Shown here one piece after another: positions 50,943-57,899 of a stretch of DNA of 64,000 bases. Each line of letters opens with the position of its first letter. Position 1 is the first letter of the stretch. Location: contig NZ_CP022098.1 of assembly GCF_002305875.1 (NCBI RefSeq), forward strand, positions 11,718,001-11,782,000, in the 5' to 3' direction. Origin of the DNA: Cystobacter fuscus (GTDB lineage: Bacteria; Myxococcota; Myxococcia; Myxococcales; Myxococcaceae). Under the pieces are notes generated by a model. It made no database searches. It saw nothing but the letters and a program-made list of their open reading frames with translations, and was not told the DNA's origin. Both the position numbers and the translations under genes were made by a program.

Positions 50943-51527
50943 TTACGGCGTGGCGGCGGCGGTGGTCTCGCCCGCGGCGCCCGCCTCGCCCTTCTGGAGG
51001 GTGGCGAAGTTGATGTTGTTGTAGCCCGCGCTGGCGCAGCTGAACATCACCCGCTTGATGATGGCGAACTCCACTTCCTTGTGGGCCTGGATGTTCACGT
51101 CACCCTTGAAGGCGTTGGTGTTGCCCTCGGCCATGGCGTGGAGATCCTCGAACTGCTTCTTCATGTCCCGCAGCTTCTCCTCCAGGGCGGGAATGTTGAG
51201 GTACTCCTCCTTGACCAGGTCCTGAACGCGGCCGACGACGTTGCCGGAGATGGTGACTTCCTCCCCGGACACCATCACCACCGGGTTCATCTCGATTTCC
51301 TTGACGTTGACCGCCTCGGGCAGCTGGATGTCCTTGGTCATCATCAGCACCTCGCCCGTCGCCGAGAAGTTGGCGATGAGGAAGAGCACGATGATCACGA
51401 ACATGTCGACCAGGGGCGTGATGAGCACGTCCGCGTTGCCACTCTTGTGGCCGTGCGTGCCGTGGCCGAACACCTTGGAGTGTTGCAGCCGTTTGCAGTA
51501 GCGCTTGCCGGGAGCCTTGATGGCCAT
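50943..51527 (-). CDS. ExbD/TolR-family protein, second of the pair
   Basis: 194 residues. A single membrane helix near the N-terminus with the essential Asp: 'NADVLITPLVDMFVIIVLFL'. The periplasmic part has 'ATGEVLMMTKDIQLPEAVNV' and ends in an Ala/Thr-rich tail. Its unusual feature is a longer basic N-terminus ('KRYCKRLQHSKVFGHGTHGH'). It is encoded 15 nt after the other ExbD-like gene and probably forms the stator with it and the ExbB-like protein. Confidence 0.88.
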   Translation of the reverse strand: MAIKAPGKRYCKRLQHSKVFGHGTHGHKSGNADVLITPLVDMFVIIVLFLIANFSATGEVLMMTKDIQLPEAVNVKEIEMNPVVMVSGEEVTISGNVVGRVQDLVKEEYLNIPALEEKLRDMKKQFEDLHAMAEGNTNAFKGDVNIQAHKEVEFAIIKRVMFSCASAGYNNINFATLQKGEAGAAGETTAAATP

Positions 51528-52111: not shown

Positions 52112-52855
52112 TTACTCCTCGTCGTGGCCCGCGGACGCCGAGACGGTGGCGTTCTTGAACTTGTCACGGTTGTTGACGATCAGGTTGAGCACCGCGACGC
52201 TCGTCTCGTTGATGTCGTTGACGATCGACGTGGCGCGGCCCGAGAGGATGGAGAAGGCGACGACGGCGGGGATGGCCGTGAGCAGTCCGAAGCCCGTGCA
52301 GTTCATGGCTTCCGAGATGCCGTTGGCGAGAATGGTCGCCTTGTCGGCCGGATTCACGTTGGCCACCGCCTCGAAGCAGGCGATCAGACCCGACACCGTT
52401 CCGAGCAGACCGGCGAGCATCGCCGCGTTGCCGAGCATGGCCAGGTAGCCGGTACGCGCCTCGATGCGGGGCGTCTCGCGCAGGCTGGCCTCGTCGAGCG
52501 CCGCCTGGACCTCCTCCTCACCCTTGGGCACGTTCATCAGACCGGCCTTGATGACCTGCGTGAGCGGCGTCTGCTTCTGGCCGGACACGTAGTTGATGGC
52601 CTTGTCCAGGTCACCCGCGTAGATGTGCTTCTTGAGGCCGCGCAGGAAGGCCTCCTTGTTGATGGACGCCTTGCCGAACAGCACAATGCTGCGCTCGACC
52701 ATGATGGCCAGGGCGAACACCAGGCAGACAGCGATGGGGTACATACCCCACTGACCGGCCTCCCAGCGCTTGGCGACTTCCTCGAAGAACGAGCGCTCAG
52801 CGCCATGGCCGGCGTTGGCAAGAATGGTCAGGTTCGTCACAAAGCCCAGGTTCAT
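52112..52855 (-). CDS. MotA/TolQ/ExbB-family proton channel protein
   Basis: 247 residues from ATG 52855 (GGAGG 12 nt upstream). 'WGMYPIAVCLVFALAIMVER' is the first transmembrane helix. 'AMLGNAAMLAGLLGTVSGLI' with 'ACFEAV' and 'GISEAMNCTGFGLLTAIPAV' are the paired channel helices of TolQ/ExbB. With two ExbD-type proteins it forms a proton-driven motor; in myxobacteria such B-D-D sets include Tol, Ton and the AglRQS gliding motor. The sequence does not allow me to choose between them. Confidence 0.92.
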   Translation of the reverse strand: MNLGFVTNLTILANAGHGAERSFFEEVAKRWEAGQWGMYPIAVCLVFALAIMVERSIVLFGKASINKEAFLRGLKKHIYAGDLDKAINYVSGQKQTPLTQVIKAGLMNVPKGEEEVQAALDEASLRETPRIEARTGYLAMLGNAAMLAGLLGTVSGLIACFEAVANVNPADKATILANGISEAMNCTGFGLLTAIPAVVAFSILSGRATSIVNDINETSVAVLNLIVNNRDKFKNATVSASAGHDEE

Positions 52856-52978
52856 AATTACGTGTTGCCTCCAAAAAACATGCGGACCCGGCGTGACGGG
52901 CCTTCGCCATCCCGGACCCCTGACCCCGCGATCTTCCGCGAGAATCATTGGCCCGCCATTGGCATCAATTGGGGCCCG

Positions 52979-53008
52979 ACTTTAAGAACGCCTCTTCAAG
53001 TGTGTCAA
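52979..53008 (-). promoter_or_regulatory. Sigma-70-type promoter for the ExbB-ExbD-ExbD operon
   Basis: On the minus strand a perfect -35 TTGACA (53008-53003) is followed after 18 nt by a -10 TAAAGT (52984-52979, four of six matches to TATAAT). It lies about 125 nt upstream of the ExbB-like start and points at it, so it is the likely operon promoter. No clear promoter was seen for the divergent MshEN gene; the rest of 52856-53158 shows nothing else convincing. Confidence 0.6.
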
Positions 53009-53158
53009 GACACGGCCTGCTCCCTTAGTTGCTGAAATCTCACGGGAATTTTGAGAGGGAACTTCGCCCGGACGGCTGGTCACATGCCAGACGGACAGCA
53101 CTTGATGCACCGCGTCATCCCCTTGACGGACAGGGGCGGTGAGGCTAAGGCGCCGCAC

Positions 53159-54010
53159 ATGGCCCGAAAGCGGATCGGTGAGTTGCTCCTGGAGAGGGGG
53201 GCGATCAGCACGGCCCAACTGGACACGGCGCTCCTGGCGCAACAGCGCACCCGGCAGCGGCTGGGCGCCACGTTGGTGGCCCAGGGCGCGATCACCGAGA
53301 AGACCCTGGCGCACGCGCTGAGCGAGGCGCTGGGCGTTCCGGTGATGGATCTGACGGGCCGCGCCCCGGACTGGAGCGCCATCCACCTGCTGCGGGCGCG
53401 CTTCTGCGAGCAGCACGACTTGTTTCCCATCTCCCTGGAAAACGTGGGCGGGCGGCGCGTGCTGGTGGTGGCCATGGCGGATCCGCTCGACTCCGCGGCC
53501 CTGCAGGAAATGGAGTTCACCACGGGGATGAAGGTGAGCCCGCGCGTGGCGCCCCTGTCGGCCGTGCGCGCCTCCATCCAGCGCTACTACCACCCGGACT
53601 CCCCCGCTCGCACCACGTCCACCACCGGTCTGCCCGTGGCGAACGAGGACGACGTGGAGGAGATCATCCTCGGCCAGGAGGAGCTCGAGGGGGAGGGCGG
53701 CGAGATCATCCTCGGCGAGGAGCTGCCCCCCGGGGAGATGACGCGCCGCGTCTCGCTCGAGCAGCTCATCCAGGAGCGAGAGCAGAAGCGGCGCGGCACC
53801 CGGCGCGGCGCGGCCCGGCGCGCGCCCTCGGGAGACGTCAGCGCCGCGCTGGACTCGCTCTTCGGCGAGCCCCAGTCGCAGGCCTCGGCGGTGGATCCGG
53901 TGGAGGAGCTGGAACGCAAGTTCTGGGCCCTCATGCGCATCATGGCGCGCAAGGGGCTGCTCACGAACGAGGAGTTCACCCGCGAGCTGGACGACGAGCC
54001 CGAGGGCTGA
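53159..54010 (+). CDS. Stand-alone MshEN (GspE N-terminal type) domain protein
   Basis: 283 residues from ATG 53159. The N-terminus carries two tandem MshEN motifs: 'RIGELLLERGAISTAQLDTA' then 'LLAQ', and 'RLGATLVAQGAITEKTLAHA' then 'LSEALG', matching the R-L-G-x-x-L-x-x-x-G-x-I pattern that binds c-di-GMP in MshE and other GspE ATPases. No ATPase domain follows. Instead there is an acidic stretch with a repeated 'EIILGQEEL' / 'EIILGEEL' and a basic segment ('EQKRRGTRRGAARRA'). It is a candidate c-di-GMP receptor protein. Divergent from the ExbB operon, convergent with the kinase genes. Confidence 0.83.
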   Translation: MARKRIGELLLERGAISTAQLDTALLAQQRTRQRLGATLVAQGAITEKTLAHALSEALGVPVMDLTGRAPDWSAIHLLRARFCEQHDLFPISLENVGGRRVLVVAMADPLDSAALQEMEFTTGMKVSPRVAPLSAVRASIQRYYHPDSPARTTSTTGLPVANEDDVEEIILGQEELEGEGGEIILGEELPPGEMTRRVSLEQLIQEREQKRRGTRRGAARRAPSGDVSAALDSLFGEPQSQASAVDPVEELERKFWALMRIMARKGLLTNEEFTRELDDEPEG

Positions 54011-54019
54011 AACAGGCGT

Positions 54020-55922
<1,903 letters not shown>

Positions 55923-55933
<11 letters not shown>

Positions 55934-57899
55934 TGGAGCTGGCCTTGTCGAGGTCCAGGATCTGCTGCGACCCCATGTAGGCTTTCGTCTCGAAGCGGGT
56001 GATGCGGCCTATCTTGCGGACGATCTCCGCCATGCGTTCCGCCTCGCGATAGATGATGTCCACCGGCTTGTACGCGGCGTCCTCCTCCTTGAGCTTGCGC
56101 TTGAGCAGCTCCGCGTAGCCCATCACCGAGGTGAGGGGTTGGTTGAGCTCGTGCGCGGTGGTGCCCGCCAGCGCGACGATGACGGCGTTCTTCTCACTCT
56201 CCTCCAGGCGCGTCTCCACGTCCGACAGCTTGCGCTCGAGCGCCATGCGGTCGCGCAGGTCCGTGAAGATGCCCACGCTGGCCACCTCGCGGCCGCCCTC
56301 GTGGACGATGGAGGCCGTCATGTTCACCGGCACGAGCTGCCCGGTCCGGCTGATGACCTCCTGGCGACATACCTCCAGCCGACCCCGCCCGCCGAAGTCC
56401 GGGCCGCGCAACTGGCGCATGATGCGCCGCGACACCCCCTGCGGGTAGAGCTGGTCCACGTGCAGTCCCCCCAGCGCCTGCGCGGCGGTGTAACCGAAGA
56501 TGGCCTCGGCCCCCTTGTTGAAGAGGATGATGCGGCCCTGCATGTCCGCGGCGACGATGGCGTCCACTGAAGAGTCGATGAGCCGCTCCAGGAAGTCCTT
56601 GGTGTGGTGCAGCTCGTCGGCCAGCAGGCGCGCCTGGGTGACGTCCCGGAAGGAGAGGATGATGGCTCGCCGCCCATCCTCCAGGGGCCCCGCGGAGAAG
56701 CACAGGGTGAGGCGGCGGCCCCCGGGCAGGCGCACCATCATGTCCACATCCGAGCGGGACTCACCGCGCCGGGCCGCCGTCACCAGCTCCATCAGCACCG
56801 TCTCGTCCAATGGCTGGGTGATGTCCACCAGGTGACGGCCCATGGCGGCCTCCGAGGACGTCTCCAGGATGGCCTCGCCCGCGGGGTTGAGGCTGAGCAC
56901 GCACGCCCGATCATCGAGGATGGCCACGCCCTCGCGCACGTTGGCGAAGAAGAGGTGGTAGGTCTCCAGCGAGGCGGCCTTGGCCTCGGCGGCGATGCGC
57001 GCGGACATCTCGCGCTCGGTCTTCCCGCGCACCGACAGGAGCAGCGAGGCGTTGCGCAGGGCGACCGCCGTGGAGTGGGCCACCGTGTTGAGGAAGTCCA
57101 TGTCGTGGGGAGCGAAGGTGCGCCGGTCGCTCCCCCTGGCGCGCAGGAGCAACACCCCGCGCACCTCGCCCGTGATGATCAGGGGCAGCGCCACGAGCGT
57201 GTGGATGTCGCGCACGGCCAGCTCCTCCTGCACGCCCTCGAACAGCGGATGGTGCGGCGCGTCCTCCACGACGACGGGCTCGCCCGTGCGTGCCGCCTCG
57301 CGCACCTCGGGGTAGCGCTCCAGATCGATGGGAACGTCCTGGGGGCCCGAGGCATCGCTGGCGGCCACCACGCGCGCGCCCTCGCCCTCCCGGTCCAACA
57401 TCACCAGCGTGGCCCGCCCCACGCCGAGCCGCTCCGCGATCCGGCGGGTGACGTCGTGCAGCAGGGCCTCCACATCGAGGCTCTCGGCGTAGTCCGCGGT
57501 GAGCTCCACCAGGAGCGCCAGGTCCTGCTGCCTTCGCCGCACCTCCTCGCGCTTGTATTGGTGCTTCATCGCGCGCCGCAGCCGCCAGGCGACCTCATGG
57601 CAGCCCGCCCCGGAGGTCATCACTTCCTCGGGATGGAACGAATCCACGGTGGAGAAGGACTCCTCGCCCGGCGCCACCCACACCACGACGGAGAGCGCCG
57701 CCCCCACGGGCGTGGCGATCAGCGCGGTGAGGGCGGCGTGCGCCTCGGGCAGGGTGAGATCCGCCAGGACAAGGGAGGCCTGCTCGGGTGCCTCCACGCA
57801 CTGGAAACCCGCCCGGGCCACCGCTTGCCTCAGCGGCTCGCGCGTGGCCAGGACCGCGGGCACCAGGATGACGCCAGGAGAGGACTCGGAGACGGACAC
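55923..57899 (-). CDS. Kinase-like protein with receiver-like, GAF, two PAS and a DHp domain but no ATPase
   Basis: 658 residues from GTG 57899. Residues ~1-115 are a degraded receiver-like domain ('ASLVLADLTLPEAHAALTAL'). GAF at ~140-290 ('RLGVGRATLVMLDREGEG', 'VAHSTAVALRNASLLL'), PAS ~320-420 ('FANVREGVAILDDRACVLSL'), PAS ~440-560 ('VDAIVAADMQGRIILFNKGA'), then HisKA with its His in 'LAGTTAHELNQPLTSVMGYA'. The protein stops after the dimerisation helices ('KASSNDD'), so it has no ATP-binding domain. It may form mixed dimers with, or be phosphorylated by, the overlapping downstream kinase. The gene is intact, so this is not a truncation by mutation. Confidence 0.88.

Follow-up and report, generated by a model that had tools for sequence, protein, structure and literature searches.

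In a 64,000-nucleotide stretch of the Cystobacter fuscus genome (hereafter the window), a gene for a free-standing MshEN protein was found head-to-head with an operon that is, judged by its sequence, the aglRQS gliding motor operon, and this divergent pairing recurs in most orthologue-bearing genomes of the order among the matches listed. The protein has the MshEN fold, nearly all of the side chains that contact c-di-GMP in Vibrio cholerae MshE (VcMshE), and a conserved C-terminal tail. The reading that we favour, tentatively, is that of a lineage-specific cytoplasmic adaptor, responsive to c-di-GMP and acting on the Agl gliding motor, its assembly or its control. The features discussed below are the following (coordinates in the window):

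50943..51527, minus strand: aglS (ExbD/TolR), 194 aa
51543..52028, minus strand: aglQ (ExbD/TolR), 161 aa; its Asp27 is the equivalent of Asp28 in M. xanthus AglQ
52112..52855, minus strand: aglR (MotA/TolQ/ExbB; Pfam), 247 aa from the MNLG start
52979..53008, minus strand: sigma-70-like, promoter-like site towards aglR, TTGACA-18-TAAAGT
53025..53053, no strand assigned: conserved 29-nt block between the divergent genes, seen by eye in 17/19 regions
53159..54010, plus strand: MshEN protein gene, 283 aa, orthologue of the aglR-adjoining gene in Myxococcus xanthus
53171..53329, plus strand: MshEN_N, residues 5-57 (motif I 5-28, motif II 34-57; NF053729, 5htl alignment, 59 orthologues)
53330..53599, plus strand: MshEN_C subdomain, residues 58-147, with D108 (Pfam PF05157, 74.4 bits)
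53660..53725, plus strand: acidic linker with two imperfect copies, EIILGQEEL and EIILGEEL
53714..53749, plus strand: conserved linker motif GEELPPGExTxR, residues 186-197, of low model confidence and followed by a predicted helix (200-217)
53906..53989, plus strand: C-terminal helical hairpin ELERKFWALMRIMARKGLLTNEEFTREL, residues 250-277, near-invariant, SHOCT-like but below the SHOCT cut-off
54020..55933, minus strand: HKd1 sensor kinase (GAF-PAS-HisKA-HATPase), convergent with the MshEN gene
55923..57899, minus strand: HKd2 (GAF-PAS-PAS-HisKA), overlapping HKd1 by 11 nt

The initial annotation had named a membrane motor and sensor kinases as neighbours; both were confirmed, and the motor can be given a name. 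One MotA/TolQ gene and two ExbD/TolR genes (Pfam) stand head-to-head with the MshEN gene. At the corresponding locus of M. xanthus AM003 (L051), the open reading frames beside the orthologue are 245, 162 and 194 aa long, the last counted from an internal ATG of a 220-aa frame, and residue 28 of its AglQ is Asp. The same lengths were given by Luciano et al. 2011 for aglR, aglQ and aglS (MXAN_6862-6860; PMC3169522), and the AglQ D28N mutant is described as lacking proton conductance and as failing to sporulate too (PMC3858216). A paralogous set, MXAN_3003-3005, exists in M. xanthus (PMC3169522). The identity of aglRQS rests on the lengths, residue 28 and gene order. By number order, the M. xanthus orthologue of the MshEN gene would be MXAN_6863.

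The gene itself had been placed correctly (coordinates, strand and length of 53159-54010). An alternative longer frame opens at TTG 53051. However, conservation in a 28-row alignment (A1) starts at MARKRIGE, with M1 invariant, and ATG 53159 is thus the likely start. The NCBIfam model NF053729 (c-di-GMP_motif) matched residues 5-56 with 64.1 bits, above its cut-off of 38, and it was reached at E<=1e-5 by 28/28 aligned orthologues, all of which also carry Pfam MshEN. D108 aligns with D108 of VcMshE and is the same in all 28 rows of A1. In the AlphaFold2 model, built on a 28-row alignment, pLDDT block means were 94-98 over residues 11-140; the linker (about 148-199) was of low confidence and overall pTM was 0.54. 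The model also has a helix (200-217) and, with moderate confidence, a helical hairpin at the C-terminus (247-264 and 270-278). The best PDB match by Foldseek was 5htl_B, the c-di-GMP-bound MshE structure (E 8.8e-12; TM 0.83, scaled to target length), followed by the GSPII domains of T. thermophilus PilF and by Xanthomonas PilB and XpsE. Pfam, Foldseek and the model thus concur on an MshEN_N/MshEN_C fold, and the original MshEN assignment held, with a nearly complete c-di-GMP motif. It had also been remarked that no ATPase follows, and indeed no Pfam traffic-ATPase domain was found in the 283 aa. Only profile positions 2-161 of 564 of TIGR02538 (PilB) were matched, at 59.6 bits vs a cut-off of 675.65, and the protein accordingly falls outside the type II secretion/type IV pilus ATPases (GspE/PilB). 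No enzymatic or DNA-binding output domain appeared above Pfam cut-offs, and a phage-family search returned no match.

As for the predicted ligand site, the consensus of Wang et al. 2016 is a tandem RLGxx(L/V/I)2xxG(L/V/I)2xxxxLxxxLxxQ with a 5-residue spacer (PMC5013675), and motifs I and II of the window protein are separated by this canonical spacer. In alignment with VcMshE, side-chain contacts are kept at R5, I6 (for Leu), G7, L21, L25 and Q28 of motif I, at R34, L35, G36, L50 and L54 of motif II, and at D108 of MshEN_C. The sole contact lost among those named in the available text of that paper is the terminal phosphate-binding Gln of motif II, replaced by Ala57. The initial view that both motifs fit the binding pattern was therefore right for motif I, which is complete with Ile for the second-position Leu, and for motif II except its terminal Gln.

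Conservation of these positions was followed in 59 distinct full-length orthologues (duplicates, fragments <230 aa, stop-less frames, own-genome paralogues and loci from L087 up were excluded). R5, G7, L10, L21, L25, G36, G43 and L54 are identical in 59/59, I6, R34 and L50 in 58/59, and L35 in 57/59. The terminal position of motif II is Ala in 51/59, Ser in 8/59 and Gln in 0/59. In motif I, Gln is replaced by His in 22/59 orthologues and Gly14 by Arg or Lys in 22/59. The His form occurs in Myxococcus/Pyxidicoccus and also in L068-L070, three MAG loci that lie apart in the tree.

A comparison is offered by T. thermophilus PilF GSPII-B (8pdk), which has the same fold as the window protein but, unlike it, belongs to a hexameric pilus ATPase. 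The wild-type domain binds c-di-GMP with a KD of 6 nM; Gln->Glu gave 950 nM in motif I and 460 nM in motif II (Q218E), and abolished binding when made in both (PMC11731258). Loss of the motif II Gln can thus be tolerated, and the Q218E mutant, again of the same fold, was crystallised with ligand (PDB 9glg). The PilF changes behind our estimate are Gln->Glu, and Ala at the motif II Gln site is absent from those in the text available. Given the Gln pattern and these values, binding of c-di-GMP by the window protein appears plausible and would be expected to be weak to moderate, and binding by the Myxococcus form appears doubtful, with poor or no affinity expected.

The same positions bear on an alternative that we consider somewhat unlikely, namely that the protein is a degenerate, c-di-GMP-blind MshEN, like XpsE and PilF GSPII-A, serving near the motor as a protein-binding scaffold with docking surfaces. 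The motif II Gln is gone from every orthologue of the set, and both Gln are gone in 22/59, in Myxococcus/Pyxidicoccus and separately in L068-L070. PilF GSPII-A, in which both Gln positions and other residues are altered, fails to bind (PMC12002112). However, the other ligand-contact residues are almost fixed, unlike those of XpsE, for which eight altered key positions are given (PMC5013675). In favour of the c-di-GMP-responsive adaptor, PilF GSPII-B without its motif II Gln still binds (PMC11731258).

Downstream of the domain, the initial annotation had read E-I-I-L-G-x-E-E-L twice and proposed the repeat as a docking site. Two similar copies are present, EIILGQEEL (residues 168-176, 53660-53686) and EIILGEEL (182-189, 53702-53725), but they are not the same nonamer. 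An exact 5-mer repeat arose in 224/20000 residue shuffles of the linker, and TRF at score 30 found no tandem array in 53600-53800. By regular-expression count, two copies occur in 3/59 orthologues, one in 45/59 and none in 11/59; the two-copy proteins come from the window and from two congeneric genomes, which makes three of the four genomes searched for that genus. The duplication is thus recent and local to the window's genus, and with the second copy absent in 56/59 orthologues, the docking proposal was not supported and the duplication was rejected as functional core. What is conserved is a single repeat copy leading into GEELPPGExTxR, and the C-terminal hairpin, whose consensus across orthologues is ELERKFWALMRIMARKGLLTxEEFxREL. 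The window protein scored 15.4 bits with the SHOCT model against a Pfam cut-off of 27 and is not counted as a member, while weak SHOCT matches were found in 16/28 orthologues at E<=0.1 (best E 0.0012).

With hmmsearch, a profile built from the tail was compared with the 14 paralogues and the 318 reading frames of the window, which include the MshEN gene itself. The best non-self matches were two other MshEN proteins of the genome, L010 (E 0.00011) and L009 (E 0.0067); the best other window frame reached E 0.11. The arrangement of MshEN, linker and helical tail therefore occurs at least three times in this genome. L009 and L010 share with the window protein MshEN, a variable linker and the related hairpin; unlike it, they are not beside aglRQS, keep the motif II Gln (by eye) and fall outside the orthologue group in the tree. 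They are encoded close together, at about 7.600 Mb of this same genome. L011, which resembled the tail by eye, was rejected at E 18 with the tail profile. A direct search of the genome with linker plus tail returned the gene itself and, beyond it, only five matches at E 0.35-0.84. Further weak matches among the 28 orthologues, given without cut-offs or positions, were to ribbon-helix-helix (9/28, best E 0.0052) and DUF4388 (18/28, best E 0.00072) models. GltJ was matched by 1/28 (2.6e-06), and our guess is that this arises through the Pro/Ala-rich linker of that orthologue. A c-di-GMP-controlled transcription factor was dismissed, as Pfam showed no DNA-binding domain in the window protein.

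We next turn to the pairing with aglR, which was surveyed in 145 genomes of the order, with up to 17 first-look candidates scored per genome. Orthologues were accepted at >=136.8 bits; the next score among the matches listed, 98.8, belongs to a second gene in an orthologue-bearing genome. Among the matches listed, the orthologue occurs in 91/145 genomes and is divergent from aglR in 86/91, at a gap, measured between match ends, of 133-550 nt (median 314). The best aglR match was used in 85/86; in G068, aglR is split over two contigs, and the second-listed fragment, on the gene's contig, was therefore used. In the remaining 5/91 (G128, G039, G040, G139 and G138), gene and aglR lie on different contigs. 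For G128 this is a contig break: at the end of the aglR contig stand residues 1-67 of the MshEN protein (L112). At least three genomes are unlinked: G039, G040 and G139 have aglR loci with no MshEN-gene neighbour (L106, L105 and L104, respectively), and unlinked orthologues stand at L082 (G039 by its coordinates), L115 and L114. In the named loci L046-L084, the gene adjoins aglR in 38/39, L082 being the exception; in L085, L086 and L088 the gene is cut to a fragment by the contig end, and aglR is missing. In a tree, 29/31 orthologue rows, all but L082 and L115, fell on one supported branch (95/91); many paralogue branches were long. In both L115 and L082, the unlinked orthologue adjoins a small DUF3467-like gene (named by eye).

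The opposite case was also observed. At E 1e-4, the MshEN gene was absent from 13 examined aglRQS loci, namely L098-L103 (G121, G122, G092, G123, G124 and G130) and, in other groups, L107-L111, L116 and L117. Some genomes of other families, e.g. G004 and G027, lack a strong aglR match. Thirteen gene-less aglRQS loci and at least three unlinked orthologues indicate that the gene is an accessory and not a motor part, and a required motor subunit was rejected on the former count.

In the intergenic region, the site at 53008 to 52979 was the only promoter-like match of a sigma-70 scan of 52800-54100, with 0.0 expected, and one regular expression of the TTGACA-18-TAAAGT type matched 19/19 regions compared (18 hand-chosen orthologues, several of them close relatives, and the window). 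Neither the scan of 52800-54100 nor the regular expression revealed a forward promoter for the MshEN gene. As for the 29-nt block, it may serve as that gene's promoter or as a site for a regulator. Such constraints might by themselves hold an ordinary MshEN paralogue beside aglRQS with no functional tie to it, which we regard as unlikely. The conserved aglR promoter-like site and the 29-nt block in the shared region would discourage rearrangement, and unlinked orthologues exist. Against this, linkage holds in 86/91 genomes (among the matches listed), down to about 40% protein identity in named loci, and it persists while the kinases on the gene's other side move. Moreover, G121 keeps aglR and HKd1 without the gene (L098; genome 86% complete), which argues that the arrangement is breakable.

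The kinases were examined as partners in their own right. No HATPase domain was found in HKd2 at E<=0.1. HKd1/HKd2 relatives of similar matched length keep the same order in many orthologue loci, and related kinases adjoin aglRQS without the MshEN gene in L098, L099, L101, L102, L110 and L117. From these gene-less loci, the linkage of kinases and motor may be older than that of the MshEN gene; it is also independent of the latter, as HKd1 directly adjoins aglR in G121. In M. xanthus, the kinases are separated from the MshEN gene by a methionine sulfoxide reductase-like gene (by eye; L051 6968-8191). That the protein is a true c-di-GMP receptor partnering HKd1/HKd2 in signal transduction, with the motor linkage secondary, seems distinctly unlikely. 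In its favour, relatives of the pair lie downstream in 29/39 loci L046-L084, and in Archangium and Corallococcus they converge directly on the gene. Against it, the kinases stand 1.3-3.9 kb away from the gene, beyond other DNA, in L051, L050, L053 and L079, none occurs within about 6 kb in L057, L064, L065, L069, L081 and L083 where aglR is still adjacent, and four of the above gene-less loci (L098, L099, L101 and L102) join kinases to aglRQS.

The free-standing state itself was dropped as a novelty, since the same genome (12.35 Mb, one contig) encodes several other MshEN proteins without an ATPase (three by Pfam, others by eye). It gave 15 MshEN matches, which were read by eye: three are traffic-ATPase proteins (L001, L004 and L007), L008 has a Ser/Thr kinase-like part and L015 an HD-GYP-like part, and the remaining ones are free-standing or fused to other parts. 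Three of the remaining proteins were checked with Pfam and hold MshEN alone. For M. xanthus, 17 MshEN proteins (PMC8844925) or 22 MshEN-encoding genes (PMC5013675) have been counted, and the one MshEN protein of Leptospira is GspE (PMC12943098). What stands out is the aglRQS neighbour, and the interest of the gene, which we consider moderate, is owed to its position.

How the preferred c-di-GMP-responsive adaptor might work can be outlined by comparison with V. cholerae MshE (5htl). Both proteins have two 24-residue motifs with a 5-residue spacer, MshEN_N and MshEN_C, and an aligned Asp108; unlike MshE, the window protein has no ATPase, has Ala for the last Gln of motif II and adds the conserved C-terminal hairpin. 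The MshEN_N bundle would take one c-di-GMP, with less than ideal affinity because Gln57 is lost. The ligand would then shift the seating of MshEN_N on MshEN_C, as is supposed for pilus ATPases, and the disordered acidic linker and C-terminal hairpin would relay the change to a partner. Most simply, this would be the AglRQS/Glt complex or its assembly factors, so that motor assembly or activity would be tuned. What we infer is ligand binding, the partner, the direction of the effect, and a part played in gliding or else in the spore-coat machine that AglRQS drives. The Gln losses, the unlinked orthologues and the gene-less aglRQS loci count against the adaptor, and neighbourhood is not interaction.

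In M. xanthus, the PilZ receptors PixA and PixB have been reported, and loss of either leads to gliding defects (PMC8316039). They are not MshEN proteins, and their mutants alter reversal frequency, not speed (PMC8316039). Deletion of dmxA also causes a gliding defect, and the effectors of DmxA-made c-di-GMP are stated, in the text available, as still to be identified (PMC11255338). A search of openly accessible main texts for the presumed tag MXAN_6863 found no mention of it. This conserved receptor-like gene, which keeps its place next to the motor operon, is a direct candidate for that part of the DmxA c-di-GMP response which concerns gliding. The Gln pattern makes for a sharp prediction, namely that window-type proteins would bind c-di-GMP and Myxococcus-type proteins poorly or not at all. 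It is conceivable, if rather unlikely, that the Agl motor, in gliding and in spore-coat work, is a direct target of c-di-GMP through this protein. The protein would then be a second-messenger clutch for a TolQR-type motor, with low receptor affinity in the forms found in Archangium, Corallococcus and the window, and with a c-di-GMP-blind version in Myxococcus. In that case the chief model species would retain the adaptor but no longer have the switch operated by the ligand. The MshEN gene is a candidate, open to experimental test, for a chemical input that controls the gliding motor.
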